From Bacteroidaceae bacterium (GTDB taxonomy: Bacteria; Bacteroidota; Bacteroidia; Bacteroidales; Bacteroidaceae), in the NCBI GenBank assembly GCA_017451645.1, contig JAFTNZ010000007.1, positions 1 to 64,000 on the forward strand: 64,000 nucleotides of DNA. Direction: 5' to 3'. Positions 25 through 61,731 of this stretch are shown one piece after another. A program made the position numbers and the translations under genes. The notes under the pieces were generated by a model. That model was not told the origin of the DNA and searched no databases. It saw only the letters and a list, made by a program, of their open reading frames with translations. Numbering within the stretch: position 1 is the stretch's first letter; each line of letters begins with the position of its first letter.

Positions 25-117
25 TTCTTAAATAAATGGCTCCTTGTACTACTTGTCTGTTCTATGTAAATCTTTCAAAGACCGCTTATACAACTGCTTT
101 CCGTTCGAAAGCGGGTG

Positions 118-1075: not shown

Positions 1076-1092
1076 TTTAATTGAGATAAAAA

Positions 1093-1731: not shown

Positions 1732-1744
1732 ATATATTTGATAT

Positions 1745-2389: not shown

Positions 2390-2767
2390 AATGGTTACTT
2401 CTTTAACACTGGCAAATATAACTGGAATATCCTGTTCCAGCAAATCTCTGATGCATAAAATTCAAAGAATATTTTGAATACAAAAAATGCTGGGCTTGGG
2501 ATATGAATACAGATTTATTTGAATACAAATTATTTTTGAGTACAAGAGATAAACGATAAACAGATATGTTGAATTGAATATCAAGATTTTATATAAAAAT
2601 TGAAGAAATGACAAATACTACCCTTGTTTTTAATGATTGTAAAAATCGTTTTATTTACTTGAATTGATAATAATTTTATCAAAATAAGCTATAAATATGA
2701 TAATCATTATATTACGTTTATAAACAAGTAGTGGTAAGGTACTTTACTAATACCTTACCATTTACCA
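2390..2767. other. AT-rich non-coding region between rep and recombinase
   Basis: About 380 bases without a gene. It holds the perfect palindrome GTTTATAAAC (2716-2725) and the hairpin at 2732-2760, both close to the 3' end of the replication gene. Such a region could contain the replication origin, the recombinase promoter, or both. No TAnnTTTG promoter is obvious. Confidence 0.45.
2732..2760. repeat. 10-bp hairpin downstream of rep (possible nick site or terminator)
   Basis: TGGTAAGGTA and TACCTTACCA form a perfect 10-bp stem around the 9-nt loop CTTTACTAA. It begins 8 nt beyond the rep stop. There is no T-run after it in the direction of rep, so a plain rho-independent terminator is not the best reading. 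A double-strand origin hairpin nicked by the Rep protein is an alternative. Confidence 0.5.
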
Positions 2768-3646: not shown

Positions 3647-3654
3647 AAAATCGT

Positions 3655-3834
3655 TTAGTTTTGTTTATTATATTTATTCTGCCAATATGCTTTCATTGCT
3701 TCGCTTATGGCTTGTTTATGTTGTTTAGTCTTTGGCTGGTTTTTCAACGCTTGGCTAATCAACTTCTTTGTTGTAGCAGATTTCTTTCTACCTCGTAAAG
3801 CGTATGAAATCTTTCTCTTTACTTGTTCATTCAT
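3655..3834 (-). CDS. 59-aa basic protein with NUMOD3-like repeats
   Basis: ATG at 3834 opens a 59-codon frame ending TAA at 3655. The protein is very basic and contains related short units: K-R-K-I-S-Y-A-L-R-G-R-K-K-S, then K-K-L-I-S-Q-A-L-K, then K-Q-A-I-S-E-A-M-K. These resemble the NUMOD3 DNA-binding motif (K-I-S-E-A-L-K-G-R-K-H-S) found in homing endonucleases, but here there is no nuclease domain. It ends 8 nt before the rep start and so is probably translated with rep. An auxiliary DNA-binding role in replication or excision is inference. Confidence 0.65.
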   Translation of the reverse strand: MNEQVKRKISYALRGRKKSATTKKLISQALKNQPKTKQHKQAISEAMKAYWQNKYNKQN

Positions 3835-3965
3835 TGTTAAACCTTTTTACTATAAATAGTAGGTAGGTTGAAAAAAGTTAGAAAAAATTACAGGAAATTT
3901 TATGGAAAGAACGCTTTACTGGTAGAAAGGTTAAAATCGGCTCTATTAGAAAGCAGTTACCTACA

Positions 3966-21884: not shown

Positions 21885-23714
21885 TTATATTAGCCAATCT
21901 TTTTTGAATAATACCCATTGTTTCTCTCCCCCCCTAACGTAAATTGGAATCCAAAGCATTCCCTCCGAGAATGTATTAGAATTACAAGGAAAAAAAATAC
22001 CTCTAGGAATGATTTCGTTTCCTTTTATATCAATGAATCCACCAGAGTCCACATTTGCCAACCCATCTACTCCTACAGAATTTATGAAAGATGATGAGAA
22101 AACCACTTCTCCTTTTTTATTGATTAATTGACCTCTATAACCATATACAGGATCTTTATTAAATACAACTGCTAATCCATTTGTAAAACTGTAATAATTA
22201 CAATGATCAAACCTCCACGTCTCAAATCGACAGGGGATGACCACTTTTCCTGTTTTATCTATGAAACCTACCTTATCGTCCTTTTTTATTGCCGCTAATC
22301 CGTCTTTGAAACTTTTACAGCTCTCCCCCAGTGTAGAAAAAACGATTTTCCCTGTTTTATCAATAAATTTTGAATGACAATTAATATCCAATTGAATCTC
22401 AGCTAAACCTTCAGAAAAGGAACCTCCATTGAAATATTGATGGGGAATGACAGCAGTTCCGGTTTTATCAATAAATCCCACGCGCCCTGTTGTTGCTTCC
22501 CTAATACGTGCTAAACCTTCTGAAAAAGAACTTGCACCTATAAAACGACATGGTATAACTACAATCCCTTTTTTATTAACAAATCCATACCTATCATTAA
22601 TTGCTACACAGGCCAAACCGTCTTCAAAGCTAGATGCCCAATCAAATTGACATGGTATAACAATTGTTCCTGTTTTATCTATAAATCCACTCTTGCCATT
22701 GATTCTTACCATGGCCAGACCTTCTTTAAAATCATTACATCCACCATCACAATGGATGTTTATCATTTCTCTTCCCTCTTTATTTATATAAGCATAGTTT
22801 CCACAATAATCCTTTCGGACTCTAGCTAACCCATTAGAAAAATCATATACATCACGATAATCATAGCTCGGTATGCCATGAGGACTACCCGTTTTATCAA
22901 TTTGAAAAGCCCTATATTTGTCATAAACAAAAGCAAAACCATCGACAAAATTGGCACAGAAATCATACTCGCAAGGTATAACTATTTCCATTTGTTCATT
23001 AATGAATCCATATTTTTTTGTCTTCTTATCCCTTATTCTGATTCTTTCATCACGAAGTGGATACAACTCATACATGGACTCCAAAGTTGCTTTTTTCTCT
23101 GCAACCATTTTCTCAGCAACATATGTATCTAAAAACTTTTGGCGACTAATAACCTCTAAACCTCTAAAAGAATTATTCAGCTGTTTTAGATAATTGATAA
23201 ATGGTGTAACTTCATCTAATGATTGAAAACTTATCGCGATAAAATCAATTTCATCAGTTATTTTACTTAATGTAAAACGCAACCGTTTCATTAAAACGGA
23301 TGCAACCAATTCTTTATACAAATCTTCTCCTTTAAAAGAAAGATGCAAAAATTGTTTGTTCCCGATTTCTCTAAAAATAGAATTATCATGATGTGACAAC
23401 CAATTGATGTAAGTCGCGGGTAGATTCATTTCGAAGTGTAAGTTTTCTCCGTGGTCAGACCCTAACAACTTTACAAGCATACTTTCCCACTGAACAATAA
23501 TCTCATTGTAAATGTCAGGAAAAGAATCCTTAAAATCGGAGATTATCTTTCCTGAAAAAGGAACAGGTTGATTTATGTTGACTTCTTCCAATAACTTTTT
23601 TCCAAACAAAGTGCAGAAATAGTTTTCTAAATTCAAATCAAATACAATTCCGCTCTCTACTTTTGGTGGAAGTGGAGACGAATCTATTTTACAATATACA
23701 AAATTCTTATGCAT
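21885..23714 (-). CDS. WG-repeat protein 1, 609 aa
   Basis: Residues 1 to about 215 form an N-terminal domain of unknown fold. From about 225 onward there are many WG (KWG) beta repeats of the form Y-G-F-I-N/D-K, V-I-P-C, F, S/F-E/D-G-L-A. Such repeats probably build a binding surface or propeller-like structure. The N-terminal domain shares layout with the next gene (an early F-x-L/W-N-L-x-x-Y-F-x-T-L/I-x-G and a central Y-K/Q-E-L segment), so the two are paralogues. No signal peptide, so likely cytoplasmic. AT-rich. Last gene of the sigma-factor operon, 41 nt after its paralogue. Confidence 0.8.
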   Translation of the reverse strand: MHKNFVYCKIDSSPLPPKVESGIVFDLNLENYFCTLFGKKLLEEVNINQPVPFSGKIISDFKDSFPDIYNEIIVQWESMLVKLLGSDHGENLHFEMNLPATYINWLSHHDNSIFREIGNKQFLHLSFKGEDLYKELVASVLMKRLRFTLSKITDEIDFIAISFQSLDEVTPFINYLKQLNNSFRGLEVISRQKFLDTYVAEKMVAEKKATLESMYELYPLRDERIRIRDKKTKKYGFINEQMEIVIPCEYDFCANFVDGFAFVYDKYRAFQIDKTGSPHGIPSYDYRDVYDFSNGLARVRKDYCGNYAYINKEGREMINIHCDGGCNDFKEGLAMVRINGKSGFIDKTGTIVIPCQFDWASSFEDGLACVAINDRYGFVNKKGIVVIPCRFIGASSFSEGLARIREATTGRVGFIDKTGTAVIPHQYFNGGSFSEGLAEIQLDINCHSKFIDKTGKIVFSTLGESCKSFKDGLAAIKKDDKVGFIDKTGKVVIPCRFETWRFDHCNYYSFTNGLAVVFNKDPVYGYRGQLINKKGEVVFSSSFINSVGVDGLANVDSGGFIDIKGNEIIPRGIFFPCNSNTFSEGMLWIPIYVRGGEKQWVLFKKDWLI

Positions 23715-23755
23715 ATGCTTCTTATAGATTAAATAGCTTAATTCACTAGTGTCTG

Positions 23756-25645
23756 TTATAATAAACTTAATAATTCTTTATTGAGAAATCCTTCTTTATT
23801 CTTTTTTGTAACCTCGTGTGCTACTGTTGCTAAAACTCCGAACATATTAGTTCCGAACATATTAGTGAAGTTTGCTTTTGATTCTTGGGCACGAATAAAA
23901 AGAAGTTCTTTCCCTATATTGTAGATATCATTGATGAAATAATATTCTTCTCCGCTTTGATTAATTATTCCTTTACTGTTTTTGTCAAGGGTTATTCGTG
24001 CGTATCCATTGTGAAAATCATATGCTTTCTGATATTTGCATTCTATTATTTCATTGCCTGCTTTATCAATAAAGCCCCATTTCCCATTCCGCTTTATTCT
24101 GGCAAAACCTTCAGCATAAGATTTTATATCATCGCACGAGATTGAGAATATTTTATCATTATTTATACTAATAGCGTGCCATAAATTTCTTTGTTTCACA
24201 AAGATAATCCCTTCTGATACTCCCCTTATATCTTCATATTCACATGGTAATGCTTCTATTCCCTTCATGAAATCAACGATACCCCATTTGTGCCCTTTTC
24301 TTGCACAAAATAGTTCCGTTGTGGAATTCTTCAAATCATCATAGATGCATGGAATTATTATTTCCCCTTTTGAATTGATTATGCCATATTTCTCATTTTG
24401 TATAAAGCGTGAATATCCAATATGGATTACATCGTCAATAATAGAACCATACAAAGAGAAAACGGAGGCCCCCGTCCCATTTATATATTCCCTTTTGAAA
24501 AGTTCCTTGTACACACATGCAATTCCTTTTTTAAATTCAGAAATATGTTTATATATACAAGGAATCACTTTATTAAATTTTGTATCTATATACCCCCACT
24601 TCGTTTGCAATTTGACCCCCGCTAGTCCTTCACTATATGAGGAGACATCTTCAAAATCAAAAGGTATCACAATTTTGTTGTATTTATCAATTAGTCCACA
24701 TTTCCCTCGCATATAGGCTTTTGCAAATCCATTTAAAAAAGGCATTGCATATTCATATACAAACGGAACAGTTGTTATTCCTAATTGATTAATATACCCC
24801 CATTTCCCATTAAGTTTAGCGTTTGAAACACCTTCCGAAAATAGGCCTCCACTTTCATAAACGAATGGAATAACTGTCTTGTTATTCTTGTCAACGCACC
24901 CCCATTTTCCATTTAACTTTACCCATGCTAATCCTTCTGAAAATTTGCAAATATCGTTGTACACAAATGGAATGACTGTATTGGCATTCTTGTTTGCAAA
25001 TCCCCATTTGTTTTTTTTTACTCCAATTAGTTCTTCTTGACAATATAAAATCCTTTCATTGGAAAAGTATCCGACATTTGGGTAAAGGCCAAATATTTCT
25101 TTTATTTTTTTTGAAAAACAAGAATTCTGCAAAAATATATCTACATCAAACTTGATTGAACTTAATTTACATTCATGAATTTGATTATTATTTAGAATAA
25201 TTAGTTTTTTTAATAATACATTCTCAATCAACTCTTGATACAAGTAATTAAAAGGTATATTTATAGGTTCTTCCAATAATGTTTCATTTGCTCGAATTGA
25301 GAACTCGTATTTAAACCAAATATAAAAAGATTTTGGAAGTATTATTGAACATTCTGCGCTGTCAATCTTTCTTGCATTAAGCAACCTTGTCAAAATGGTT
25401 TTCCATTGTTCCATTATAGATTGAAAGTCATTGTAATGCATATCCTTATAATTTAGGTATATTAAACCTGGATATAGTAATTCTACTTTTAGATTATTAA
25501 TCCTTAGAAAATACTCCCCAAGAATTGTAAAAAAATAGCAATCAAGATTCCAATCCTTTATAATTACAGTTCCTTCTGTAAATATGCTAAAATCCTTTTT
25601 AGGAGTAACAGGTGTACCACAATTTATATATATAGATGTTCCCAT
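23756..25645 (-). CDS. WG-repeat protein 2, 629 aa
   Basis: Same plan as the 609-aa neighbour: an N-terminal domain to about residue 205, then roughly nine to ten WG repeats (N-G-K-W-G-C-V-D-K, N-G-K-W-G-Y-I-N, N-G-K-W-G-F-I-D-K with V-I-P-F-V-Y and F-S-E-G). The last 60 residues leave the repeat pattern (F-T-N-M-F-G-T-N-M-F-G-V-L-A). No signal peptide or enzyme motif. It starts 10 nt after the frameshifted gene, so it belongs to the same transcription unit. Markedly AT-rich, unlike the sigma factor end of the operon, suggesting separate acquisition. Confidence 0.8.
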   Translation of the reverse strand: MGTSIYINCGTPVTPKKDFSIFTEGTVIIKDWNLDCYFFTILGEYFLRINNLKVELLYPGLIYLNYKDMHYNDFQSIMEQWKTILTRLLNARKIDSAECSIILPKSFYIWFKYEFSIRANETLLEEPINIPFNYLYQELIENVLLKKLIILNNNQIHECKLSSIKFDVDIFLQNSCFSKKIKEIFGLYPNVGYFSNERILYCQEELIGVKKNKWGFANKNANTVIPFVYNDICKFSEGLAWVKLNGKWGCVDKNNKTVIPFVYESGGLFSEGVSNAKLNGKWGYINQLGITTVPFVYEYAMPFLNGFAKAYMRGKCGLIDKYNKIVIPFDFEDVSSYSEGLAGVKLQTKWGYIDTKFNKVIPCIYKHISEFKKGIACVYKELFKREYINGTGASVFSLYGSIIDDVIHIGYSRFIQNEKYGIINSKGEIIIPCIYDDLKNSTTELFCARKGHKWGIVDFMKGIEALPCEYEDIRGVSEGIIFVKQRNLWHAISINNDKIFSISCDDIKSYAEGFARIKRNGKWGFIDKAGNEIIECKYQKAYDFHNGYARITLDKNSKGIINQSGEEYYFINDIYNIGKELLFIRAQESKANFTNMFGTNMFGVLATVAHEVTKKNKEGFLNKELLSLL

Positions 25646-25655
25646 TTTAGCTATC

Positions 25656-26525
25656 TTAATGTTGCATCAAATCAAACAATTTCGTACTCAATTTTATATA
25701 TAAATCATCAGAAGATTCCATATTTTTTAGCAAATTCTCAAAAAAAGGAACATCATCATGAGTAAGGTAATCCCCATAGAGAGTTTCATCTATGATTTCT
25801 TCAAAACTTTCGTTTGTTATATGGAAACGTTCCGTCACATAATTTCTCCACAGTTTTTCAACAACTTCGCGAGATGAAGCTTGAGATAATTCCAATTCCT
25901 TGTTTATGACTTCATACTGTGATTCTCTAATTCCTTCCATTGCAGTCAAACCCATTTCTTCTTTTCTGAGAAATCGGTACGTGTCTTCGTACGCTTCCGC
26001 CAGACTCTTACGCAACTCAATATCCTTGTATAACTTAGGGAAATAAGATTTCATCAATTTGGGAAGTAACGGTTCTGCATCAACAGACCGAAGATGATGA
26101 ATGTCGGCCAATGCAGCCAAATTCAATCCTATGTATGCAGAAAAGATGTCAGCCAACGGATTTAAATCCTTCAGAGGCTCTACCTTAAATATGTTATAGA
26201 TGTCCAATGCCTCTATTTCTTCCATCCTGTTCTCAGCCATACGTTGTTCAATGTGGAGGGCTTGGTACAAATCCACATTCCGTTGCAATGTATCACGCAT
26301 CATCTTAAATCCTAAGGCATTAGCATCCAACAAACAGTCTATCTCTTTGATGGCATTCAGTGCTTTTATAGATCGCTCATATACGGCATTTGCCAACACT
26401 ACATCTATATTTATAGGAAAATTCAGTTCCGTGCGATGATGGATGGTTGAATTGTATCCAATTCCCCATGACGAGAACATCAAACGAAATGTCGTTCCAT
26501 CAAAACGGGGTCGATAACGATACAA
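25656..26525 (-). CDS. Downstream half of a probably frameshifted protein
   Basis: This frame has no good start: it opens with TTG at 26525, inside the previous gene, and its first in-frame ATG is about 17 codons in. It reads naturally if joined by a -1 shift at the CCCC run near 26507 to the 261-aa frame: I-V-I-D-P then R-F-D-G-T-T-F-R-L. The body is helical (E-R-S-I-K-A-L-N-A-I-K-E-I-D, then long acidic helices), with no recognised domain. Either it is a programmed -1 frameshift product of about 540 aa or a gene broken by loss of one C. It is 10 nt upstream of the WG gene. Confidence 0.6.
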   Translation of the reverse strand: MYRYRPRFDGTTFRLMFSSWGIGYNSTIHHRTELNFPINIDVVLANAVYERSIKALNAIKEIDCLLDANALGFKMMRDTLQRNVDLYQALHIEQRMAENRMEEIEALDIYNIFKVEPLKDLNPLADIFSAYIGLNLAALADIHHLRSVDAEPLLPKLMKSYFPKLYKDIELRKSLAEAYEDTYRFLRKEEMGLTAMEGIRESQYEVINKELELSQASSREVVEKLWRNYVTERFHITNESFEEIIDETLYGDYLTHDDVPFFENLLKNMESSDDLYIKLSTKLFDLMQH

Positions 26526-37144: not shown

Positions 37145-38038
37145 ATGCAGCACTCCATGTCATCCCCCATCCCCGAATCGGAACTGATGATCAATGCAGA
37201 CGGTTCCATCTTCCACTTGCACCTGCGCCCCGAGCAGTTGGCTGACAAAGTCATTTTAGTGGGCGACCCGGGGCGTGTTTCTCTTGTAGCCTCCCACTTC
37301 AATGTCGTCGATCACAAGGTGGAGAGCCGGGAGTTCCGCAGTGTCACCGGACGTTATCAGGACAAAAGGCTGACTGTCGTATCCACCGGAATCGGATGCG
37401 ACAACATCGACATCGTGCTGAACGAGCTGGATGCCTTGGGCAACATCGATTTCAGCACCCGCCGGATAAGGGATGTACACCGCACGCTGGAACTTGTACG
37501 CATAGGCACATGCGGTGGTCTGCAGCCCTACACCCCCACCGGGTCTTACATCATCTCAGAACGTTCCATCGGATTCGATGGTCTGCTCAATTTCTATGCC
37601 GGACGTTCCCGTGTGTGCGACCTCGCCTTCGAGACTGCCTTCAAGGAACAGGTGAAATGGAATCCCGTACTGGGGAATCCTTATGTTGTCCGTGCCGACG
37701 GAGAGCTGACCGCCCGCATCTCCGGCAGAGACGACAGCCGTTTCATCAAAGGTGTCACCATTGCCTGCGGAGGTTTCTATGGCCCACAAGGACGGATGCT
37801 CCGCCTTCCTTTGGCCGATTCAGACCTGAACGAAAAGATTCGGTCCTTCGAGTACCAAGGCCGGCACATCACCAATTTCGAGATGGAGAGCAGTGCCTTG
37901 GCAGGACTTTCCGCTCTCCTCGGACACAAGGCCACCACAGTCTGCATGGTTGTGGCCAACCGCTTTGCACACAAGTCTGACACCGGCTACCACTCTTCCA
38001 TCGACGATCTCATACAGATAGTATTGGACAGGATTTAA
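37145..38038 (+). CDS. Nucleoside phosphorylase (uridine/purine phosphorylase family)
   Basis: 297 residues from ATG 37145 (an ATG at 37157 is also possible). PNP/UDP family motifs are clear: V-I-L-V-G-D-P-G-R-V near residue 40, I-G-T-C-G-G-L-Q with T-G-S-Y-I-I-S-E, and the base-binding F-E-M-E-S-S-A-L-A-G. The enzyme cleaves a nucleoside with phosphate to base and ribose-1-phosphate; uridine is the likeliest substrate, but side-chain determinants cannot be read with certainty. It starts 19 nt after the TPR gene. Confidence 0.85.
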   Translation: MQHSMSSPIPESELMINADGSIFHLHLRPEQLADKVILVGDPGRVSLVASHFNVVDHKVESREFRSVTGRYQDKRLTVVSTGIGCDNIDIVLNELDALGNIDFSTRRIRDVHRTLELVRIGTCGGLQPYTPTGSYIISERSIGFDGLLNFYAGRSRVCDLAFETAFKEQVKWNPVLGNPYVVRADGELTARISGRDDSRFIKGVTIACGGFYGPQGRMLRLPLADSDLNEKIRSFEYQGRHITNFEMESSALAGLSALLGHKATTVCMVVANRFAHKSDTGYHSSIDDLIQIVLDRI

Positions 38039-38085
38039 GGGGGGGATGTTTTCATAGGTTCAATAGCATGTGTCTGTAAAACTCT

Positions 38086-38192
38086 AAAAATGCGCCTTGC
38101 TTTTTTTCAAATGCGCCTTACTTTTTCCCAAATGCAAGGCGCATTTACACCAAGTGCAAGCCGCATTTTGGAAAATACAAGGCGCATTTTTT
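38086..38192. repeat. Cluster of AAATGCGCCTT repeats in both orientations
   Basis: AAATGCGCCTT occurs near 38088 and 38109. Its complement AAGGCGCATTT occurs near 38136 and 38179, with a variant GCCGCATTTTG near 38160. The copies can pair into long alternative stems immediately downstream of the phosphorylase gene. It may act as a terminator or 3' stability element. Confidence 0.7.
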
Positions 38193-38310
38193 GAACTTCC
38201 CAGTTTTAGGGGAATCAATATTCGACCTCTATTCGTATCGTTGGAGTCGTTTTAAGGAGGTTCTTATCAATCTTTTCTATCTGGTTTACAGTCGTTTTTT
38301 TCATCTTTTC

Positions 38311-38341
38311 TTGCTCATTCGACGAAAACACTGTAAATTTG
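38311..38341 (+). promoter_or_regulatory. Promoter of the secreted-protein locus
   Basis: TTG (38311-38313), 20 nt, TAAATTTG (38334-38341). A near-perfect Bacteroidetes promoter; the leader to ATG 38391 is about 45 nt. Confidence 0.6.
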
Positions 38342-38390
38342 CAAGCAGAGGAATAACTTTTTGTCTAACCCTTAACGGAAATTGCGACTA

Positions 38391-39638
38391 ATGAAAAAAC
38401 TACTTTTTTGCGTAAGTGTGATGCTTGCAAGTGTGTGTGCACAAGCTCAATTGAGAGTAAATGAAAACGGAGATGTCAGTATCCAGACAACGGACAGTGT
38501 GGTGTCTCCATTAGCTGTCGGATATGCAGGAAATTCCACCTACAGCATAGCTGCCACAGGAGTTAAAGATGGAATTTTCGGAAGGAGATATGGGACACCG
38601 ACAAATACTACAGATTCATGGACAGGCGGAATAGTGGGAGTAAATTATCCTAATTCAAATCGTTTCTACATTGGCACAAAAGGACAAGCCAGAAGAACAA
38701 CGGCATCAACATCAGGCAGGTCGTATGGAATTTACGGTGATGCAGGCAATTGTACATCCGGATACAACTACGGTGTGTTCGGTGTGATTTATGGCAGCAA
38801 TTATGGTGCTGCAGTCTTCGGGACTGTCAACCCATACAATGCTTACGTACCCGGACTATATGCCGGCTATTTTGCCGGAGACATCAAGGCAACAGGAAAC
38901 ATCTATGGCACAGTGTTAACAGCAAGTGCATCGTCAAACAGCAGTGCGGTGGCACAAACACTCAACATTTCAGACGAAAGCACCACGGAAACGGTATCTG
39001 CCAAGTTGGCACAACTTTCTCCCATACAATATATGTTGGAGACTCCCGTAGCACCGGCATCCATGGACAGCGACACCATGGCAACTGTCGCTTTATGCGA
39101 GGCTGAGGTGCAGGCATTGGAAAAGACCCACTACGGCATTGATGCCACCGCACTACAAGCTGTCTTCCCCGACCTTGTCTATGAAGACCAACATGGGGAA
39201 CTCTGTATCAACTACATTGAGATGGTGCCGCTGCTTGTGCAGTCCATCAAGGAACTCCAATCCGAAATCACAGCTCTGAAAAGCGGGAATGTATCGCTTA
39301 TGGGTAACAATGGGACTGTTCATGCCCGTTCGCTTGGTAACAATGCCACCCCGGTAGAGGATGCAACGAGTGTCACCATCCCCACTTTGGAACAAAACGA
39401 TCCGAACCCGTTCACGGAAAACACCACCATCGCCTACTCACTGCCTGAAAACGTGCAGCATGCCACTATCTATATTTACGACATGAACGGAACGCAAATC
39501 CATCAGATTCCCCTGTCTGAAAGAGGCAATGCAGTGGTAACAATCAGCGGTGGCGAGCTCAAGGCTGGGATGTACCTCTATTCACTCATTGCTGACGGAA
39601 AAGTGATTGATACGAAACGGATGATATTGACGAAGTAG
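38391..39638 (+). CDS. Secreted S74-chaperone protein with T9SS sorting domain
   Basis: 415 residues. Signal peptide ends near C-A-Q-A-Q. The middle is glycine- and tyrosine-rich (Y-G-I-Y-G-D-A-G, Y-G-V-F-G-V-I-Y). Around 215-300 it has the layout of the S74 intramolecular chaperone (L-S-P-I-Q-Y, F-P-D-L-V-Y-E-D, Y-I-E-M-V-P-L-L-V-Q-S-I-K-E-L). The last 80 residues (N-D-P-N-P-F-T-E-N-T-T-I, I-Y-D-M-N-G, L-K-A-G-M-Y-L-Y-S-L) are a type A T9SS sorting domain. It should be exported and attached to the cell surface through type IX secretion. It is 12 nt upstream of the C25 protease. Confidence 0.85.
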   Translation: MKKLLFCVSVMLASVCAQAQLRVNENGDVSIQTTDSVVSPLAVGYAGNSTYSIAATGVKDGIFGRRYGTPTNTTDSWTGGIVGVNYPNSNRFYIGTKGQARRTTASTSGRSYGIYGDAGNCTSGYNYGVFGVIYGSNYGAAVFGTVNPYNAYVPGLYAGYFAGDIKATGNIYGTVLTASASSNSSAVAQTLNISDESTTETVSAKLAQLSPIQYMLETPVAPASMDSDTMATVALCEAEVQALEKTHYGIDATALQAVFPDLVYEDQHGELCINYIEMVPLLVQSIKELQSEITALKSGNVSLMGNNGTVHARSLGNNATPVEDATSVTIPTLEQNDPNPFTENTTIAYSLPENVQHATIYIYDMNGTQIHQIPLSERGNAVVTISGGELKAGMYLYSLIADGKVIDTKRMILTK

Positions 39639-39650
39639 AACAATAATGCC

Positions 39651-42095
39651 ATGAAAGTTCAGATCCTTTCCTTCCTTTTTTCCTGCATTCCCCTTTTGGT
39701 TATGCAGGCACAAACCATTATTCCGTTCCGGAACGTGGCACGTACATTTGCAACTGATGATAGCATTGCAGCCGAGTCTGTTGTTCCTAATTGTATCATT
39801 TCGATAACCGATGACTCCAAAGCCAAGATAAATTACACTTTCGAAAATGCCGTGGAGAACAAAAGCCTTGTGGATGGTGTGAATTATTCCCACCTGCGCA
39901 TCAAGGGATTCGGAATCAACACCCGTATCGGTTGTCCGCAATTGCCGGGCTATACCGATATTATTGCCGTAAAGACAGAGGCTCCGACAGTCCGCATTGT
40001 CTCTTCCGACTATGTAGAATACACGGACTTTGACATCTTCCCCGCACAGATACCCGAAACGGAGAGTGACACTGCGAGCCATCCTTTCGTCAAGGATTCT
40101 ACCATCTATGCCACTAATGCATTCTACCCACAAAATCTGGTGGAGGTACAGGATGTGCAGAAATATCGTGGCATCCCACAAGCTCTTGTTCGTGTGAATC
40201 CCGTGCAATATAACCCTGTGACACGCACCATCCGTTGCCATTCCAATATTGTGTATGAGTTGGACAACGCTATGACAACAGAAGAAATAGAAGACGCAGT
40301 TCCTTACGAAGTTGTGGCTGCATTAGAAGACACTGATACGGTAGAAGCACTTTATTACACTTCGCCAGACAAATACATTATTGTGACAGTGGACAAATAC
40401 AAGAGTACTCTCACATCGTTTGTCCAATCCAAGGAACAATTGGGGTATAAGGTCGTAGTACTTTCTAAACCATCATGGAGTAGCTCTACGGAAGTGAAGA
40501 GTGCCATTCAGACAGAGTATGACAGGAGTGAAAATTCTCGCCCTCGTTTCTTGCTGATTGTAGGAGGACATGAGGATGTGCCAGCTGGAATAAAATATAA
40601 TTGGTGGTTTAAGTCTAATGAATGGAATCAACAAGAACCTTATGTGACAGATCATTATTATTCTTGTATGGATGGAGAGAATGATTATTGGCCCGATTTG
40701 GCGAGAGGGCGTTGGGATATTAATGGAGTTTCTGAGCTATCTGTTATAATTGAAAAGATTACCAATTACACTCGAACGCAACATTATACAGGAAACATTG
40801 CTTTATGTGCAGAGTTTGAACCATTAAAAATGAAGTCTAATTATTGGGAATCAGACAATACTATGGAGAATGCACGTTTCATCAAAACGAGTGAAGAGGT
40901 TCGGGATTATCTGTTAACATATCAAGATTATCAAAATGCCGAACGTATATATTATGCTCCACAAGGTTGTACTCCATTGCGTTATAACGTTTATCATTAT
41001 TCCGATGGTTCCTTATTTCCTGAAGAATTAAGAGACTCGAATTTTAATTGGCAAGGAAGTAATGGGGATGTTATAGACGCAATTAATGGAAATGTAGATT
41101 TTATATTATATCGCGGACATGGTAACGTTGACAGTTGGACAAACAATCTGTTTTCTATCACGGATATCTCCTTTTTGACAAATACACAATTATATCCCTT
41201 CATATTTAATACAACCTGTCTGACTGGAAAATTTTATAATATGACTGATAACTTACCTACAAATTGTTTTGCGTCTTCATTATTGAATGCCCCCCAAAAG
41301 GGTGCATGTGGAGTGATTGCAGCTTCTGAAGCAACCTTTTCGGGATACAATGATGTTTTTGTTGAAGGAATGTTTAATGCAATATTCCCTAATCCTGGAA
41401 TTTCTCCTCAAATGGCCGAAACTTACGAAAATGGTTATGGAAACTCTTTAAGTTATACACCTTATTCCGTTTTTGATACCACTGCTGTGTATGCTATGGG
41501 TGAGGTCATGAATGAAGGTATCAAGAAACAAATACAGTGTTATGGCATTGTTTATGAAGATAACTTGCAGACGAATACTCAGATTCAGAACATACAACGT
41601 TTTCATCTCTTTGGAGATCCCAGTACGGAAATCTATACAGGAATTGCACAAAATTTGAACAATATCACCATTAGTCAAGTAAATGGCCGGATATCAGTAA
41701 ATACCAACGGGCTTGAAGATTGTCGGATTATTCTTAAGCCCACTGAAGATGAAGACAGTTTAGAGTTTCAGATGGTGGACCATTTAATAGGTACATTCAC
41801 ATTTGAATACAGTGATTGCGACTATGAGATTATCATACAAAAGCACAATTGCCGTCCAGTATATAAGACTTTAACTAATGCCCATGACATTTATTTGCAA
41901 AATCAAGTGCAGACGACTGATAAAATCTATAACGGAAGGAATATATATGTAGGTAAAAATGTAACCGCAGAAATCTCCACAGGGGATTATGTCGTAAAAA
42001 GTGGCGCAAATCTTGAACTCAATTCAACGGGAAATGTCACATTGTCCAGTGGATTTACAGTAAAAAAAGGAGGAACATTGGAAATAAACAAATAA
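39651..42095 (+). CDS. Gingipain-like C25 cysteine peptidase
   Basis: 814 residues. Signal peptide, then a propeptide-like region (about 25-235), then the caspase-fold C25 catalytic domain: R-F-L-L-I-V-G-G-H-E-D-V near 300, A-R-G-R-W near 352, catalytic His490 in L-Y-R-G-H-G-N, and Cys523 in F-N-T-T-C-L-T-G. The end (N-V-T-L-S-S-G-F-T-V-K-K-G-G-T-L-E-I-N-K) is a short beta-stack of the kind found at the ends of type IX cargo. It would be a secreted protease. The same C-terminal motif recurs after each of the three following genes. Codon use becomes AT-rich from about 40500. Confidence 0.88.
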   Translation: MKVQILSFLFSCIPLLVMQAQTIIPFRNVARTFATDDSIAAESVVPNCIISITDDSKAKINYTFENAVENKSLVDGVNYSHLRIKGFGINTRIGCPQLPGYTDIIAVKTEAPTVRIVSSDYVEYTDFDIFPAQIPETESDTASHPFVKDSTIYATNAFYPQNLVEVQDVQKYRGIPQALVRVNPVQYNPVTRTIRCHSNIVYELDNAMTTEEIEDAVPYEVVAALEDTDTVEALYYTSPDKYIIVTVDKYKSTLTSFVQSKEQLGYKVVVLSKPSWSSSTEVKSAIQTEYDRSENSRPRFLLIVGGHEDVPAGIKYNWWFKSNEWNQQEPYVTDHYYSCMDGENDYWPDLARGRWDINGVSELSVIIEKITNYTRTQHYTGNIALCAEFEPLKMKSNYWESDNTMENARFIKTSEEVRDYLLTYQDYQNAERIYYAPQGCTPLRYNVYHYSDGSLFPEELRDSNFNWQGSNGDVIDAINGNVDFILYRGHGNVDSWTNNLFSITDISFLTNTQLYPFIFNTTCLTGKFYNMTDNLPTNCFASSLLNAPQKGACGVIAASEATFSGYNDVFVEGMFNAIFPNPGISPQMAETYENGYGNSLSYTPYSVFDTTAVYAMGEVMNEGIKKQIQCYGIVYEDNLQTNTQIQNIQRFHLFGDPSTEIYTGIAQNLNNITISQVNGRISVNTNGLEDCRIILKPTEDEDSLEFQMVDHLIGTFTFEYSDCDYEIIIQKHNCRPVYKTLTNAHDIYLQNQVQTTDKIYNGRNIYVGKNVTAEISTGDYVVKSGANLELNSTGNVTLSSGFTVKKGGTLEINK

Positions 42096-42098
42096 AAG

Positions 42099-42944
42099 AT
42101 GACTATGAAGAAAATTTTGATGATATTTTTAATTGGTATTATAGGTACTCATCCTATTTCTACACATTCACAGGAGTTACGTAAATCTCTTGATGATTAT
42201 ATCAAGAAAGGTTCGGCATGGATTGATGTGCGTGTGAAAACCGGTGGTTATGGTGTCTATGGAGAATACACTCCAGGTGATACGTATAGTGTTGAACTCA
42301 ATTATATCACAGGAGATACCTTAATAGGAGAAAGCATATACCAAAGAGTCAACACCAGAACTTGGAAAAGTAGTTGTTCCTATGATTGGTTTGACATGAA
42401 AGATCTTTATTTTATCCAAACTGACAGTTCGAATTGTATGTGGACTAGGTATCGGAATGAAGAAGAAAATATCTTTCTTATAGACTTTAGTAGGAATTTT
42501 GAAATAGGCGACACTATAAATAATCGCGATGGATATCTGAAACATGTCATTTCGAAAGTAGATACCATCACTTTCATGGATGGCAGCAAAGGGCTTATTG
42601 CTAACAATGAATATATATATGGCATAGGGCATTGTTATTGTTCTCCTGTCGCGCCGGAGGAAGAAGGTATTGAAGATGGTCGGTCATGGGTATTTCTCGC
42701 CTTCATCCGTGATGGTGAGTTCTTATATGTCAGAGATCATCTGAAAGAAATCCTCAACAACGACGGTTTTGTGGAGCGTGTAATGAAAAGTTTCAAGAAA
42801 GATGCCGACCACATCCTTCCGTCCACTTTCGACGACCGCACGGATACCGATGCCCCCATCTACAACCTGACCGGACGCAGACTTAATAGCGTTCCCGAAA
42901 AGGGTGTTTATATCCAAGGGGGAAAGAAAAGGGTGGTGAAATAG
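42099..42944 (+). CDS. Cassette paralogue 1, secreted, 281 aa
   Basis: Family not recognised. A signal peptide (K-K-I-L-M-I-F-L-I-G-I-I-G) is followed by a beta-rich centre and the shared end D-A-D-H-I-L-P, T-D-T-D-A-P-I-Y-N-L-T-G-R-R-L and G-V-Y-I-Q-G-G-K-K-R-V-V-K, which resembles the short sorting tails of Bacteroidales type IX cargo. Conserved inner motif: I-D/S-K-V-D-T-I-T-F then G-L-I-A-N-N-E-Y-I-Y-G. It starts 3 nt after the protease and is the most divergent of three tandem relatives. The stop is TAG, followed in frame by the 30-codon tail. Confidence 0.7.
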   Translation: MTMKKILMIFLIGIIGTHPISTHSQELRKSLDDYIKKGSAWIDVRVKTGGYGVYGEYTPGDTYSVELNYITGDTLIGESIYQRVNTRTWKSSCSYDWFDMKDLYFIQTDSSNCMWTRYRNEEENIFLIDFSRNFEIGDTINNRDGYLKHVISKVDTITFMDGSKGLIANNEYIYGIGHCYCSPVAPEEEGIEDGRSWVFLAFIRDGEFLYVRDHLKEILNNDGFVERVMKSFKKDADHILPSTFDDRTDTDAPIYNLTGRRLNSVPEKGVYIQGGKKRVVK

Positions 42945-43037
42945 CTGACGAAGAAGCTCGTTCTTGATGCGAGAAATAACGTTACCCTTTCGGGAGGATT
43001 TACGGTAGAGAAGGGTGCTACGTTGGAAATAAAATAA
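42945..43037 (+). repeat. Post-stop coathanger tail, copy 1
   Basis: Directly after TAG, the same frame stays open for 30 codons (L-T-K-K-L-V-L-D-A-R then N-N-V-T-L-S-G-G-F-T-V-E and G-A-T-L-E-I-K) to TAA at 43035. It matches the end of the C25 protease. It would be translated only by readthrough. Confidence 0.75.
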
Positions 43038-43050
43038 AAAAAGGTGTATT

Positions 43051-43884
43051 ATGAAAAGACTATTGATTATATTCACTATATTTTGTGCAAGCAATATCAC
43101 ATTGCTTGCACAAAAGGACTCCATTATTACCGACTTTTTAGAAGAGGGAACAGCATGGGTAGAGGTTCGTCCTTCTTATTATTTCTTTCATGCTTTAAAA
43201 CAAAATGATATATCTGGTGCACAAGCAGAAATAACATATTATTATATTACAAGTGACACCATCGTACGAGGTGTAAAATATTGGAATTTGGCTTGTAAAG
43301 TATTATACAATCATCATTTGGATGTTTCCTATGGGGGAGTTGATTATGCCTACATTGGTTTGAATGATGAAGGAGTACTGAGAGAGAAGTTCTTTTTTAA
43401 TGCCAAAGACACTTCACATATTCTGTATGATTTTGGTAAACAATATAATATAGGGAATAGAATCAGGTATGCCCAAAGGGGAGATTATAATACTCTGTCG
43501 GAATGTACGGTAGAAAAAATTGATACAATAACGTTTCTAAATGGGATAAAAGGACTTATCGCCAATGATGAGTATATTTATGGATTAGGGCATAAAAGCC
43601 ATCCTTTCTATTGGGCCTTTGTTGTTGATGACGGAAATGAAGGTTTTGACATTAGCCGTTTTTTATGTCTCTTCTATCGTGGTGAAATCATCCTCCAAGA
43701 TGATGAACTGATGGAACAGATAAAGAAAAGTATCGGTATGGATGCCGACCACATCCTTCCACCCACTTTCAACAATCGCACGGATACCGATGCCCCCATC
43801 TACGACCTGACCGGGCGCAGGTTAAAGAGTGCTCCCGAGAAGGGAATCTACATCCAAGGAGGGAAGAAACGGGTGGTGAAATAG
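43051..43884 (+). CDS. Cassette paralogue 2, secreted, 277 aa
   Basis: Family not recognised. The first 35 codons (K-R-L-L-I-I-F-T-I-F-C-A-S-N-I-T-L-L-A-Q-K-D) are almost identical to paralogue 3, as are the last 65 (D-D-E-L-M-E-Q-I-K-K-S-I-G-M-D-A-D-H and G-I-Y-I-Q-G-G-K-K-R-V-V-K). The centre differs strongly, keeping only scattered motifs such as T-I-V-R-G-V-K-Y-W, I-D-T-I-T-F and L-I-A-N-D-E-Y-I-Y-G-L-G-H-K-S-H-P. Signal peptide and type IX-like end indicate a secreted product. Stop is TAG, with the in-frame tail behind it. Confidence 0.72.
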   Translation: MKRLLIIFTIFCASNITLLAQKDSIITDFLEEGTAWVEVRPSYYFFHALKQNDISGAQAEITYYYITSDTIVRGVKYWNLACKVLYNHHLDVSYGGVDYAYIGLNDEGVLREKFFFNAKDTSHILYDFGKQYNIGNRIRYAQRGDYNTLSECTVEKIDTITFLNGIKGLIANDEYIYGLGHKSHPFYWAFVVDDGNEGFDISRFLCLFYRGEIILQDDELMEQIKKSIGMDADHILPPTFNNRTDTDAPIYDLTGRRLKSAPEKGIYIQGGKKRVVK

Positions 43885-43977
43885 CTGACGAAGAAGCTCG
43901 TTCTTGATGCGAGAAATAACGTTACCCTTTCGGGAGGATTTACGGTAGAGAAGGGTGCTACGTTGGAAATAAAATAA
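43885..43977 (+). repeat. Post-stop coathanger tail, copy 2
   Basis: Identical by eye to 42945-43037, at an offset of exactly 940 bp. The identity continues through the spacer into the start of the next gene (to about 44092). Confidence 0.8.
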
Positions 43978-43990
43978 AAAAAGGTGTATT

Positions 43991-44806
43991 ATGAAAAGAC
44001 TATTGGTTATATTCACTATATTTTGTGCAAGCAATGTGATATTGCTTGCACAAAAGGACTCCATTATTACCGACTTTTTAGAAGAGGGAACAGCTTTTGT
44101 AGAAGTGTGGCTACTCTATGATGATAAATCATTTAGCGGGAAAAGAGTTCAAAAGATTTTTCTCAATGAAATTGAAAAAGATACAATAATAAACGATACA
44201 AAGTATTGGGCTGTATCAATCAGAAGTTGGTCTGATTATGATTTTGATTCGTGCTATAAATCTACAGATTACTATTATCTTGCAATGAAAGAAAATGGTA
44301 AATTACAGGTATTGTATCATAATGCAGTTTCTCCAACAGTTCTCTATAATTTAGGAGAAAAAGGATTTACTATGGGAAACAATATAGTTTATCTAAATCA
44401 AAACAATGAATACTCACAGGAAACTGTCACACAAATAGATACCATCATATTAAATGGAGGATATAGGGCGATTATTGCAAATGAAGAATTCATCTACGGA
44501 TTAGGACATAAATCACATCCTTTATTTTGGTCTGATGAGGATTGGAATCCAGAATTAGAAAGCTATCATAGTTTAAATCGATTCCTCTGTCTCTTCTATC
44601 GTGGTGAAATCATCCTCCAAGATGATGAACTGATGGAACAGATAAAGAAAAGTATCGGTATGGATGCTGACCACATCCTTCCACCCACTTTCAATGATTG
44701 CACGGATACCGATGCCCCCATCTACGACCTGACCGGACGCAGACTTAATAGCGTTCCTGAAAAGGGTGTTTATATTCAAGGAGGAAAGAAACGGGTGGTG
44801 GAATAG
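43991..44806 (+). CDS. Cassette paralogue 3, secreted, 271 aa
   Basis: Same plan as paralogue 2: near-identical signal peptide and first 35 codons, divergent centre (W-L-L-Y-D-D-K-S-F-S-G-K-R-V-Q-K against R-P-S-Y-Y-F-F-H in paralogue 2), then L-I/I-A-N-E-E-F-I-Y-G-L-G-H-K-S-H-P and the shared end G-V-Y-I-Q-G-G-K-K-R-V-V-E. The 3' end is closer to paralogue 1 in places (R-R-L-N-S-V-P-E-K-G), a mosaic that suggests gene conversion between copies. The TAG stop and in-frame tail follow. Function unknown; probably surface or secreted. Confidence 0.72.
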   Translation: MKRLLVIFTIFCASNVILLAQKDSIITDFLEEGTAFVEVWLLYDDKSFSGKRVQKIFLNEIEKDTIINDTKYWAVSIRSWSDYDFDSCYKSTDYYYLAMKENGKLQVLYHNAVSPTVLYNLGEKGFTMGNNIVYLNQNNEYSQETVTQIDTIILNGGYRAIIANEEFIYGLGHKSHPLFWSDEDWNPELESYHSLNRFLCLFYRGEIILQDDELMEQIKKSIGMDADHILPPTFNDCTDTDAPIYDLTGRRLNSVPEKGVYIQGGKKRVVE

Positions 44807-44899
44807 CTGACGAAGAAGCTCGTTCTTGATGCAAGAGATAATGTAACTCTTTCAGGAGGATTTACGGTAGAGAAGGGTGCTACGTTGGAAATAAAATAA
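44807..44899 (+). repeat. Post-stop coathanger tail, copy 3
   Basis: Third copy, with several synonymous or near-synonymous changes from the other two (for example GATAATGTAACTCTTTCAGG), yet still open to TAA at 44897. Confidence 0.72.
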
Positions 44900-45389
44900 T
44901 TCAAGTTTCGCAAGTAGAAACCGAACACTCCTCCACCGCAAGCCCACAGGTTATTTGGGGCGGCGGTCCCCCTCGGACTCCGTCGCTAAAGCTCCCCGAT
45001 TGCTGTGCCAGCTCGCAATCGCTATAAACAGAGGAGGAGCTCGGGAGCACAAACGGAAGAATGGTAACGGTAACTCAGTGGGGCACCCCAAAAGACACAG
45101 ATTACCTGACACCTCACCACAAACGGCAGCAGAAAAAGAAACAGACATCCCCACTACCCTACCACAAACAGCAGACTGGTGAGCAACCAGAACTCTCCCT
45201 CTGTTTATAGAGGGAGTACCCCGAAGGGGGGAGGGAGTTCAGAAAAAATCACTTGCAAAGTTGGGTCAAACTGATGCACTTTGTTTTTCACACATCACTA
45301 AAAGGTTATAAAACATAATGAAGAACATACTGATAGAAAAGATTTATTCACTATCTTTGCGTCTTCAATCAACCAAATAGAGACAAGAA
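44900..45389. other. Non-coding region with intergenic repeats, upstream of topB
   Basis: About 490 bases without a credible gene. At 44955-45060 there is GC-rich, low-information sequence (CGGACTCCGTCGCTAAAGCTC). At 45189-45240 are nested inverted arms (CTCCCTC and GAGGGAG; ACCCCGAAGGGG) of a kind that I recall as dispersed intergenic sequence in Bacteroides. The topB promoter is at the right end. Confidence 0.5.
45352..45359 (+). promoter_or_regulatory. -7 box of topB
   Basis: TATCTTTG, 30 nt upstream of the topB ATG. No TTG at the standard distance. Confidence 0.45.
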
Positions 45390-47450
45390 ATGATAGTTTG
45401 TATTGCCGAAAAACCCAGCGTGGCCAAAGACATTGCCGACGTGCTGGGAGCCAGAAACCGCCACGAGGGATACATCGAGGGTAACGGTTATCAGGTGACA
45501 TGGACCTTCGGCCACCTCTGTACACTGAAAGAACCGCACGAATATACTCCGGCATGGAAAAGCTGGAGTTTGGGCAGTCTGCCCATGATTCCACCGCGCT
45601 TCGGCATCAAACTGATAGCGGATACGGGTATCGAGAAACAATTCAATATCATCCAACGGCTGATGCAACAGGCCGACGAAATCATCAATTGCGGCGATGC
45701 CGGCCAGGAGGGTGAACTGATACAGCGATGGGTCATGCAGAAAGCCGGAGCCAAATGCCCCGTCAAACGGTTGTGGATATCATCGCTCACCGAAGAGTCC
45801 ATCCGGGAGGGATTTGCCCACCTGATGGACCAGTCGGAAAAACAATCGCTCTATGAGGCCGGACTGAGCCGGGCTATCGGCGACTGGCTGCTGGGGATGA
45901 ATGCCACCCGACTCTATACGCTGAAGTACGGGCAAAACCGGCAGGTGCTCTCCATCGGACGGGTGCAGACCCCTACATTGGCCCTCATTGTGAACCGCCA
46001 ACTGGAGATTGAGAACTTCAAACCGGAGCCTTATTGGGAACTGAAAACCGTCTATAGGGAAACAACTTTCTCGGCCACCAAAGGAAAATTCACCTCCAAA
46101 GAGGAGGGTATGGATTTTCTGGAAAAGGTGAAGAATGCCCCCTTCACCGTCACGAACGTCGCTGAAAAGAAGGGGACAGAAGCCCCTCCACGACTCTTCG
46201 ACCTGACTTCACTGCAAGTGGCCTGCAACAAAAAGTTCGGCTATTCGGCAGACGACACCCTGCGCATCATACAGTCGCTCTACGAAAAGAAGTTCACCAC
46301 CTATCCGCGCGTAGATACCACTTTCTTGAGCGACGACATATACCCCAAGTGTCCGGCCATACTGAAAGGGCTGCGCGACTATGAAGCCCTGACGGCTCCA
46401 CTGGAGGGAAAGAAACTGAATAAGAGCAAAAAGGTGTTCGATTCGTCGAAAGTGACCGACCACCATGCCATCATCCCCACGGGAGTACCTCCACAAAACC
46501 TCACCGACATGGAACGCCGGGTGTTCGATCTGGTGGCACGCCATTTCATTGCCATATTCTACCCAGACTGCCGTTTCTCTACCACTACAGTGCTGGGGGA
46601 TGTGGAAAAGATCGAGTTCAAGGTGACAGGCAAACTGATTACTGACCCCGGATGGCGGACAGTCTTCGGACAACCCTCCAACACAGAGAAAAGCGAAGAG
46701 GGGAAAACCGACGATGAGGAGCGGACACTACCCCTCTTCACCGTAGGCGAAAGCGGACCGCACCTGCCCGACTTGGGAGAGAAATGGACACAACCACCCA
46801 AACCCTACACCGAAGCCACTCTGCTACGTGCCATGGAAACAGCCGGCAAACTGGTAGATAACGATGAGCTGCGAGATGCACTGAAAGAGAATGGCATAGG
46901 GCGGCCCTCCACCCGGGCTGCCATCATTGAGACCCTCTTCAAGCGAAGGTATATACGCAAGGAACGAAAGAACCTGATAGCAACACCTACGGGGGTGGAG
47001 TTGATACAGTTGATTCATGAAGACTTGCTGAAATCGGCTGAGCTGACAGGTCTATGGGAAAAGAAACTGCGTGAGATAGAACGCCGCAACTACGATGTAC
47101 GCACCTTCATCGACGAACTGAAACAGATGGTGGGAGACATTGTACACGAAGTGCTGAGCGACAACTCCAACCGGCGCATCACCGTGACAGAACTCCCCTC
47201 GCCTGCCGAGGAGATAAAGGCCAAAGCTGCCGGGAAAAAGGCACGGAAAGCGCAAACCGACGGGGCAAAGAAGAGTGGCTCCGGCAGGAAAAAGAAAGAG
47301 GCTGCAGCGGCATCTGCCACCACAGCCCCCCAACATAGCATTGAAGGCCAACCGTGTCCGCTCTGCGGAAAAGGTGTCATCCTACGGGGAAAAACCGCCT
47401 TCGGATGTTCAGAGTGGCGCAACGGTTGCACATTCAGAAAACCTTTCTGA
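45390..47450 (+). CDS. topB: DNA topoisomerase III
   Basis: 686 residues. Toprim domain at the N-terminus (M-I-V-C-I-A-E-K-P-S-V-A-K, then C-G-D-A-G-Q-E-G-E-L). Type IA core with active-site Tyr305 in T-T-Y-P-R-V-D-T, preceded by S-I-G-R-V-Q-T-P-T. The C-terminus has a Lys/Ala-rich linker and one zinc-finger-like module (C-P-L-C-G-K-G-V and F-G-C-S-E-W-R-N-G-C). The enzyme decatenates DNA through single-strand passage. It converges with the phosphate transporter gene with only 7 nt between the stops. Confidence 0.93.
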   Translation: MIVCIAEKPSVAKDIADVLGARNRHEGYIEGNGYQVTWTFGHLCTLKEPHEYTPAWKSWSLGSLPMIPPRFGIKLIADTGIEKQFNIIQRLMQQADEIINCGDAGQEGELIQRWVMQKAGAKCPVKRLWISSLTEESIREGFAHLMDQSEKQSLYEAGLSRAIGDWLLGMNATRLYTLKYGQNRQVLSIGRVQTPTLALIVNRQLEIENFKPEPYWELKTVYRETTFSATKGKFTSKEEGMDFLEKVKNAPFTVTNVAEKKGTEAPPRLFDLTSLQVACNKKFGYSADDTLRIIQSLYEKKFTTYPRVDTTFLSDDIYPKCPAILKGLRDYEALTAPLEGKKLNKSKKVFDSSKVTDHHAIIPTGVPPQNLTDMERRVFDLVARHFIAIFYPDCRFSTTTVLGDVEKIEFKVTGKLITDPGWRTVFGQPSNTEKSEEGKTDDEERTLPLFTVGESGPHLPDLGEKWTQPPKPYTEATLLRAMETAGKLVDNDELRDALKENGIGRPSTRAAIIETLFKRRYIRKERKNLIATPTGVELIQLIHEDLLKSAELTGLWEKKLREIERRNYDVRTFIDELKQMVGDIVHEVLSDNSNRRITVTELPSPAEEIKAKAAGKKARKAQTDGAKKSGSGRKKKEAAAASATTAPQHSIEGQPCPLCGKGVILRGKTAFGCSEWRNGCTFRKPF

Positions 47451-49750: not shown

Positions 49751-49853
49751 CGACAGTCCTATTATAGGATTATTACAAAAATGTTACAAAAATATTACAG
49801 ACAACCTTTTCGCCCAAATTGCCCGTTTTCCCCTACCTGAAATAAGAAAAAAT

Positions 49854-49886
49854 CCCCTACCTGAACCGAAACTTTTCAGGTAGGGG
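49854..49886 (-). terminator. Rho-independent terminator of the DUF805 gene
   Basis: A perfect 11-bp stem (CCCCTACCTGA with TCAGGTAGGGG), then ATTTTTTC in the leftward direction, 37 nt beyond the DUF805 stop. Confidence 0.75.
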
Positions 49887-49922
49887 AAGATGTATGGGGA
49901 ATCTTTCTACTCCCTAAGCAGG

Positions 49923-57506: not shown

Positions 57507-58145
57507 ATGCCCATCGGACAACATAGAAGAGCATTTCATCTTTGTATAAACATAACAGTGGTTTTGTGGACCACTGTTATGTTTCTTTTATTTCCTGCTT
57601 GTTCCGGTCAGGACAAGAACATGGCTGCAGCCATCACCAGCCGGGATTCATTGCCCGTCATGCGCACCGTCGGAGTGGAAAGCCTGATATCCGACTCCGG
57701 AGTGATACGCTACAAGATTATAGCCGAAGAATGGCTCATCTTCGACAAGACGGACCCTCCTTATTGGGCCTTCGAGAAAGGGGTCTATCTGGAGCAATTC
57801 AATGAAGAACTGGTGCCCGAGGCTACCATCAAAGCCGACACAGCCTATTACTACGACCCCAAAAAACTTTGGGAACTGAGAGGCAATGTACACATCGAGA
57901 ACCTGAAGGGAGAGAAGTTCGACACCGAACTGCTCTTCTGGAACCAGAAGACAGAGAAGGTCTATTCTGAAAAGAAAATACGCATCGAGCAGAGCGACAA
58001 AATCATCACCGGACAAGGATTCGAATCGAACCAGCAACTGACGGACTACACCATCCACAGCACCGAAGGCATCTTCTACGTAGAAGAAGAGTCGCCGGCG
58101 GCAGCTGCATCCGCACAAGATTCCCTCCGGACAGATTCCTTATAA
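57507..58145 (+). CDS. lptC: LPS export protein LptC
   Basis: 212 residues. A lipoprotein-type signal (M-F-L-L-F-P-A-C-S-G-Q) replaces the membrane anchor of proteobacterial LptC. The LptC/OstA beta-jellyroll follows: F-E-K-G-V-Y-L-E-Q-F, K-A-D-T-A-Y-Y-Y, L-W-E-L-R-G-N-V-H-I-E-N and L-F-W-N-Q-K-T-E-K-V-Y-S-E-K-K-I. It would carry lipopolysaccharide from the LptB2FG pump across the periplasm. No other lpt gene is in the window. Confidence 0.85.
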   Translation: MPIGQHRRAFHLCINITVVLWTTVMFLLFPACSGQDKNMAAAITSRDSLPVMRTVGVESLISDSGVIRYKIIAEEWLIFDKTDPPYWAFEKGVYLEQFNEELVPEATIKADTAYYYDPKKLWELRGNVHIENLKGEKFDTELLFWNQKTEKVYSEKKIRIEQSDKIITGQGFESNQQLTDYTIHSTEGIFYVEEESPAAAASAQDSLRTDSL

Positions 58146-61655: not shown

Positions 61656-61697
61656 GAGGAGTCCGCCAGTATATATATAATAAGGTATATATAGCCA

Positions 61698-61731
61698 AAA
61701 AGGGAATGTGCAGATGCCATTCCCTTTTTTT
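61698..61731 (+). terminator. Terminator of the ppiD operon
   Basis: AAAGGGAATG and CATTCCCTTT pair with a short loop, followed by a T-run; 43 nt beyond the ppiD stop. Confidence 0.75.

Follow-up and report, generated by a model that had tools for sequence, protein, structure and literature searches.

Signs of past recombination at the ends of a tandem array of exported-looking genes interspersed with C25 peptidase-like tails in a Bacteroidaceae genome

The nearest described layout found for the locus considered here appears to be that of the meningococcal tpsA/tpsC/IORF islands, in which, by the portion of that account available, fragments related to the 3′ part of a secreted-protein gene lie between differing downstream genes, and recombination is proposed to gather new downstream genes (PMC3848433). 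The present array would be alike in layout without being a member of that group. Here too, 3′ fragments of a main gene lie between downstream genes, namely three tails resembling the end of a C25 peptidase, with seven further such orphans in the genus, but the tpsC cassettes are described as alternative C-termini, whereas the short fragments here are similar to the C25 end itself, and the genes behind them there are putative immunity genes, whereas those here look exported and match no family. For polymorphic toxin loci that carry standalone cassettes, the available part of the source sets out that one recombination event at the 3′ tip of the secreted gene can import a new downstream gene (PMC3482391). 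The likeness would lie in the use of a secreted-gene 3′ tip as a recombination site for the gain of downstream genes, although the products of the three genes of the array (P1, P2 and P3) match no toxin or immunity family in Pfam, NCBIfam or PADLOC, and here only the downstream gene varies. For Porphyromonas gingivalis, an exchange of domains and alleles among surface proteins, including those of the C25 family, has been deduced as recombination, again by the part of the article available (PMC5266723). Both cases concern Bacteroidetes surface proteins that are mosaic between alleles, but the exchange in P. gingivalis is between strains, and a tandem array bearing peptidase-end remnants is not described in that part of the article. 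A search of open-licence PMC text, by title, returned nothing on this array or on orphan C25 tails.

The window, meaning the whole 64-kb stretch of contig C34 that was analysed, belongs to an assembly of 2.5 Mb in 38 contigs that is 72.6% complete. Its forward strand carries, in order, a gene for a 418-residue product with a type IX secretion C-terminal sorting domain (38382..39638; Por_Secre_tail PF18962, 32.6 bits against a cut-off of 27; TIGR04183, 35.4 bits against a cut-off of 23), a gene for an 814-residue C25 peptidase with a C25 propeptide (39651..42095; PF01364, E 2e-51; PF08126, E 1.4e-13), and the three paralogues P1 (42105..42944; 279 aa), P2 (43051..43884; 277 aa) and P3 (43991..44806; 271 aa), each encoding an exported-looking protein with a signal-peptide-like start. 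P1 begins 9 bases 3′ of the end of the peptidase gene and has a second in-frame ATG at 42099. A scan of 38000-46000 against Rfam gave no match at the gathering score. The stretch 38088-38189, 5′ of the gene preceding the peptidase, holds short repeats, 21-24 bases long, that contain the words AAATGCGCCTT and AAGGCGCATTT, and GC content, which is 45-55% across much of the window, falls to 31-35% at 1-4000 and 22001-26000.

Past the TAG stop codon of each paralogue, the frame continues for 30 codons to a TAA, yielding three orphan tails on the forward strand (42945..43037, 43885..43977 and 44807..44899) that align over their length with the C-terminus of the upstream C25 peptidase itself. The tails behind P1 and P2 are identical, and that behind P3 differs from them at six bases, five of which are third positions (chance 0.018). 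Neither these in-frame tails nor the palindrome described below featured in the first-pass annotation of this DNA. The tails are probably untranslated remnants, and the repeating unit of the array would consist of a C25 3′ remnant, a short spacer, a signal peptide, a variable centre, a shared linker and a C-terminal tail. Two counterpoints to such a unit are that the tails are only 74% alike to the adjoining C25 tail, too little for ready recombination with it, and that no secreted-type gene lies directly 3′ of the last of them.

Direct repeats of about 300 nt occur in the array at spacings of 940 and 922. The block comprising the end of P1, its orphan tail, the spacer and the P2 signal peptide (42931..43154) recurs on the same strand as the end of P2, its tail, the spacer and the P3 signal peptide (43871..44094) with 220 of 224 positions identical, in good agreement with the junction repeat of about 215 bp, at an offset of 940 and with about four differences, that had been noted by eye. 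The spacer between the genes is identical in both copies, and the longest perfect match between repeats of the array spans 135 bp. Mismatches fall at 43066, 43096, 43098 and 43100, the last three all in the 5-base core between the 15-bp arms of a 35-bp palindrome (43081..43115, no strand assigned) inside the signal-peptide codons of P2. Since the 35 bp at 44021..44055 in P3 (likewise without strand) are the exact reverse complement of those in P2, these three mismatches amount to one flip; the junction copies are thus separated by one point difference and one core flip, and both core orientations leave the signal-peptide reading frame open. Over the 3′ part of P2 and P3 (43684-43977), there are 26 differences in 294 positions at offset 922. 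A search of 399 family genomes that scored two candidates in each recovered the complete junction DNA from its own genome only; of the 18 genomes with a match, the other 17 share 29-51 bases.

The palindrome pattern, with up to three mismatches allowed, occurs in this genome only at the P2 and P3 sites. A site-specific recombinase acting at the palindrome was considered and rejected, as sites with opposed cores would invert the intervening DNA, and a local flip of the loop would be the simpler reading of the two cores. This would resemble the small inversions of chloroplast DNA, in which, by the portion of the source available, the loop between inverted-repeat arms likewise occurs in both orientations, with the difference that the flip here is within the signal-peptide codons of two tandem bacterial genes. 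More strong palindromes, their arms 12-15 bp long and their cores 7-9 bases, are present at 49853-49887, 57548-57584 and 61697-61729.

Comparison of P2 with P3 separates alike ends from strongly diverged centres. The signal peptide has alike residues at 31 of its 34 positions, none of them differing in codon. All 34 linker residues are alike, and 3 of these use different codons; for the centre, the figures are 57 of 157 alike and 35 of those 57 differently encoded, and for the C-terminal tail, 34 of 40 and 11 of 34. The signal peptide and linker taken together (3 of 65) differ sharply in this respect from the centre (Fisher 4.7e-12), and because their identity extends to silent sites, purifying selection on the protein is not the cause of it. 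The 65 last codons that the first-pass annotation had assigned to both P2 and P3 are indeed shared, though not as the single block then envisaged, being composed of the fully alike linker and the less alike C-terminal tail. The divergence it had reported for the centres is upheld by all three comparisons, in which P2/P3, P2/P1 and P3/P1 have 57 of 157, 41 of 157 and 37 of 149 residues alike, respectively. Only 8 of 34 signal-peptide residues and 17 of 34 linker residues of P1 are alike to those of P2, and neither element is therefore common to P1. At third positions, 101 of 157 codons differ between the P2 and P3 centres, which are thus too diverged for a selection test. The centres are also poorer in GC than the last 74 codons, at 34.5% against 48.2% in P2, 30.9% against 45.9% in P3 and 39.0% against 46.8% in P1.

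The 3′ end of P3 had been described as mixing features of P1 and P2, and the pattern of two-against-one sites confirms it. These number 58, with P2 and P3 agreeing at 32, P1 and P3 at 14, and P1 and P2 at 12, and they fall in 16 runs, a count as low as which was reached in none of 100,000 shuffles. With the linker left out, the remaining 32 sites form 14 runs (368 of 100,000 shuffles as low), and the 25 sites from 43804 on form 9 (283 of 100,000). Along the 3′ end the grouping is mainly P2 with P3, then P1 with P3, then P1 with P2, such that neighbouring blocks back different pairings of the copies, as expected of gene conversion among tandem paralogues. In the last 96 bases, P1 and P3 match at 90 positions, as compared with 80 for P1/P2 and 80 for P2/P3. 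On contig C37 of the assembly, the terminal part of a gene for 811 aa matches the same bases of P2 at 84 positions and those of P1 and P3 at 78 each, and although this margin is small, tails at other places in the genome may have taken part in the exchange. Judged from the DNA, past recombination at the ends of the array is evident; from it we infer a homologous, RecA-type machinery, as well as the rate and benefit of the exchange.

Orphan tails of this type are found beyond the window. A search with four query tails, one of them from genome G006, at E up to 0.05 returned 37 matches, 14 of which belong to the genus (15 genomes) and are spread over five genomes. Four of the 14 end long Peptidase_C25 frames (in the window, on contig C9 of the same genome, and in G011 and G014), and the other ten are orphans in three genomes: three in the window, one each on contigs C9 and C12 of the window's own genome, three in G005 and two in G006. 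Behind seven of the ten comes a gene whose start, as judged by eye, is signal-peptide-like, one such gene being cut by a contig end, and behind two the contig stops at an ATG; outside the window, five of the seven orphans in the genus precede a secreted-looking gene. Their lengths, also by eye, are about 14 codons in three cases, about 24-30 in six and about 130 in one, the last being on contig C44 of G005, where only these codons of a C25 gene end are present. Two contigs of G005 have identical terminal stretches of 141 bp, located at an orphan tail. The remaining 23 matches lie outside the genus and include one in G093 that ends a C25 gene and one in G267 that is a 70-aa frame ahead of a 702-aa gene, close to a contig end. 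A contig of G006 (C16; L148:1-6335) displays four secreted-looking genes of differing lengths in a row, with the last 204 bases 75-87% alike to those of the first copy and one orphan C25-like tail between the second and third genes.

A second mosaic is apparent on contig C12, where bases 208-880 are 96% alike to C9:256977-257649, while bases 1-208, from the tail onward, are identical at 206 of 208 positions to the junction that follows the C9 copy of the C25 gene (248712-248919), with both differences altering the tail protein. As C12 thus matches two separate places on C9, stretches from two places appear to have been joined at the C25 tail, although this mosaic lies at a contig end and misassembly is possible. 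The C9 and C12 spacers are the same, and all seven spacers checked outside the window carry the motif TAnnTTTG past the tail, 30-31 bases from its stop in six and 51 bases in one; this is presumably the −7 promoter box of Bacteroidetes. The motif is absent from the window spacers, which are 9, 13 and 13 bases long. With a promoter in the spacer, a unit that keeps its promoter must extend back to the C25 end, and promoter retention may therefore explain the kept tails outside the window, but not those inside it.

On balance, the array is probably a row of tandem units, each a C25-tail remnant with a secreted gene, whose ends have been homogenised by past exchange while their centres have been kept apart. 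The 224-bp end repeats, with their longest exact run of 135 bp, would permit homologous exchange, whether by gene conversion or by unequal crossing-over, which would homogenise the ends, yield mosaic 3′ ends and on occasion gain or lose a unit, while the centres, with about 36% or fewer of their residues alike, would be too diverged to recombine and would retain their differences. The stretch from the C25 tail to the signal peptide may be a recurrent breakpoint or homology arm, because other secreted-looking genes in this genome and in the genus also follow C25 tail remnants. The diversifying array shaped by gene conversion or cassette recombination that the first-pass annotation proposed thus stands as regards exchange at the ends, on the strength of the codon identity, the 3′ mosaics and the C12 mosaic, whereas diversification driven by a host or rival is no more than a possibility. 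If this account is true, the short tail of a secreted-peptidase gene is the recombination arm through which the exported-protein gene beside it is changed, which would give such bacteria a simple route to surface-protein variation, and a search of other genomes for orphan C25 tails could bring similar arrays to light. A broader and rather doubtful extension is that C25 peptidases of the genus have exchangeable partners, such that cassettes of a C25 end, a spacer (often with a promoter) and a secreted gene recombine via the tail, swapping or lengthening the gene or row of genes behind the peptidase and leaving the peptidase end unchanged.

The chief alternative is that the units were duplicated lately and that their centres were imported from other strains or species through the constant ends, a course of events that is possible but less probable. 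It would account for ends nearly free of silent change beside saturated centres and for the low GC content of the centres in all three paralogues, and P1 is not firmly grouped with P2 and P3: in a tree of 12 centres its placement is not settled, with the three forming one group in 14% of bootstrap trees. The same tree, however, places P2 and P3 as sisters (99/99, from slices that include part of the shared ends), and no donor has been found. At E up to 0.01, relatives of the centres are present in 17 of 399 family genomes, counting the genome itself, but below 1e-6 only G138 and G230 are found beyond the genome itself, and these score at most 38 bits as compared with 334-358 for the array members from which the profile was built. 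An old duplication with purifying selection on the ends, which had been named at the outset as the refuting case, would fit the C-terminal tail of P2 and P3 taken alone, with 34 of 40 residues alike and 11 of those 34 differently encoded, but is contradicted by the signal peptide and linker, which are alike at silent sites too, and by the identical intergenic spacer, and is scarcely credible for the array.

Active switching of these surface proteins within a population could be imagined from the near-identical direct repeats that differ by one point difference and one core flip; it is unlikely, however, with all three copies appearing complete, and a single assembly was examined, the genome searches having turned up no other strain of the species. 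The open 30-codon frames, each in frame with the preceding gene, and the excess of third-position changes in the third tail would suit readthrough of the TAG to translate the tail and give two forms of each protein. This was rejected as the main explanation and is very improbable, for each of the two changes in the C12 orphan affects the protein sequence, other orphans are just about 14 codons long or stand behind non-coding DNA, and the C37 gene that shares the C-terminal tail ends in TAG with no such C25-like tail behind it. Still less can be said for an assembly artefact: although the assembly is fragmented into 38 contigs and incomplete, and the 141 bp at which both G005 contigs end indicate that such repeats break assemblies, exact repeats within the array are at most 135 bp long, its copies carry private differences, and all three frames are open.

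As to the products themselves, the centres of P1-P3 gave nothing above cut-off, or at E up to 0.1, in Pfam, NCBIfam or PADLOC, and the type IX sorting models TIGR04183 and PF18962 did not match the three proteins at E up to 1. The genome encodes the type IX component SprA (720.8 bits with the model of its N-terminal family, as against no match in 14 control genomes), and export of P1-P3 through the type IX system would be in keeping with this. A Paraprevotella locus, by the portion of the report available, encodes type IX exported proteins that recruit trypsin (PMC9477747) and exemplifies a role that exported proteins may have in related bacteria. The end of the window C25 peptidase scores 11.6 bits with the 3-coathanger stack domain model (NCBIfam NF045639, GCX_COOH; cut-off 26). 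In a PDB sequence search the best E was 0.34, in the tail, and an AlphaFold model of P2 from a three-row alignment had a mean pLDDT of 41.

At E up to 1e-20, relatives of the C25 peptidase are found in 10 of 201 family genomes, this one among them, and five of the nine other loci were examined (G214, G067, G191, G070 and G011). In all five, a gene for 415-436 residues lies ahead of the C25 gene and one or two other genes lie behind it, encoding 254 aa in G214, 259 in G067, 345 in G191, 505 then 253 in G070, and 620 in G011. The G011 product has a weak C25 propeptide match (E 0.0025; 17.4 bits against a cut-off of 22), a hint that some genes behind C25 could act on the peptidase; P1-P3 have no match to the C25 propeptide in Pfam. 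That P1-P3 are alternative surface partners of the neighbouring peptidase is a tentative guess from their position. With BLAST at 0.01, P1-P3 match genes in G138 and G267 also beyond the common tail, P2 further matches G369 over a long stretch and G067 over the last 100 residues, the match in G191 is confined to the tail, and G214, G070 and G417 give no match. The genes behind C25 in G214 and G070 are thus alike to P1-P3 in place and, by eye, in pattern, with no BLAST match to speak for homology.

The C-terminal tail of P1-P3 is widespread at the C-termini of proteins in relatives. Named records bearing it come from Prevotella, Prevotellaceae, Bacteroidaceae and Bacteroidales assemblies, several with rumen or other ruminant-stomach sample names, and a profile search of contigs found 12 loci with every match confined to residues 224 onward. 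A search of IMG/VR with the alignment of the centres found no relative. In G138 (L109:742-3220), a subtilase-like gene lies immediately 5′ of a short lipoprotein-like gene, the product of which matches the P1 and P2 centres at E about 1e-7.
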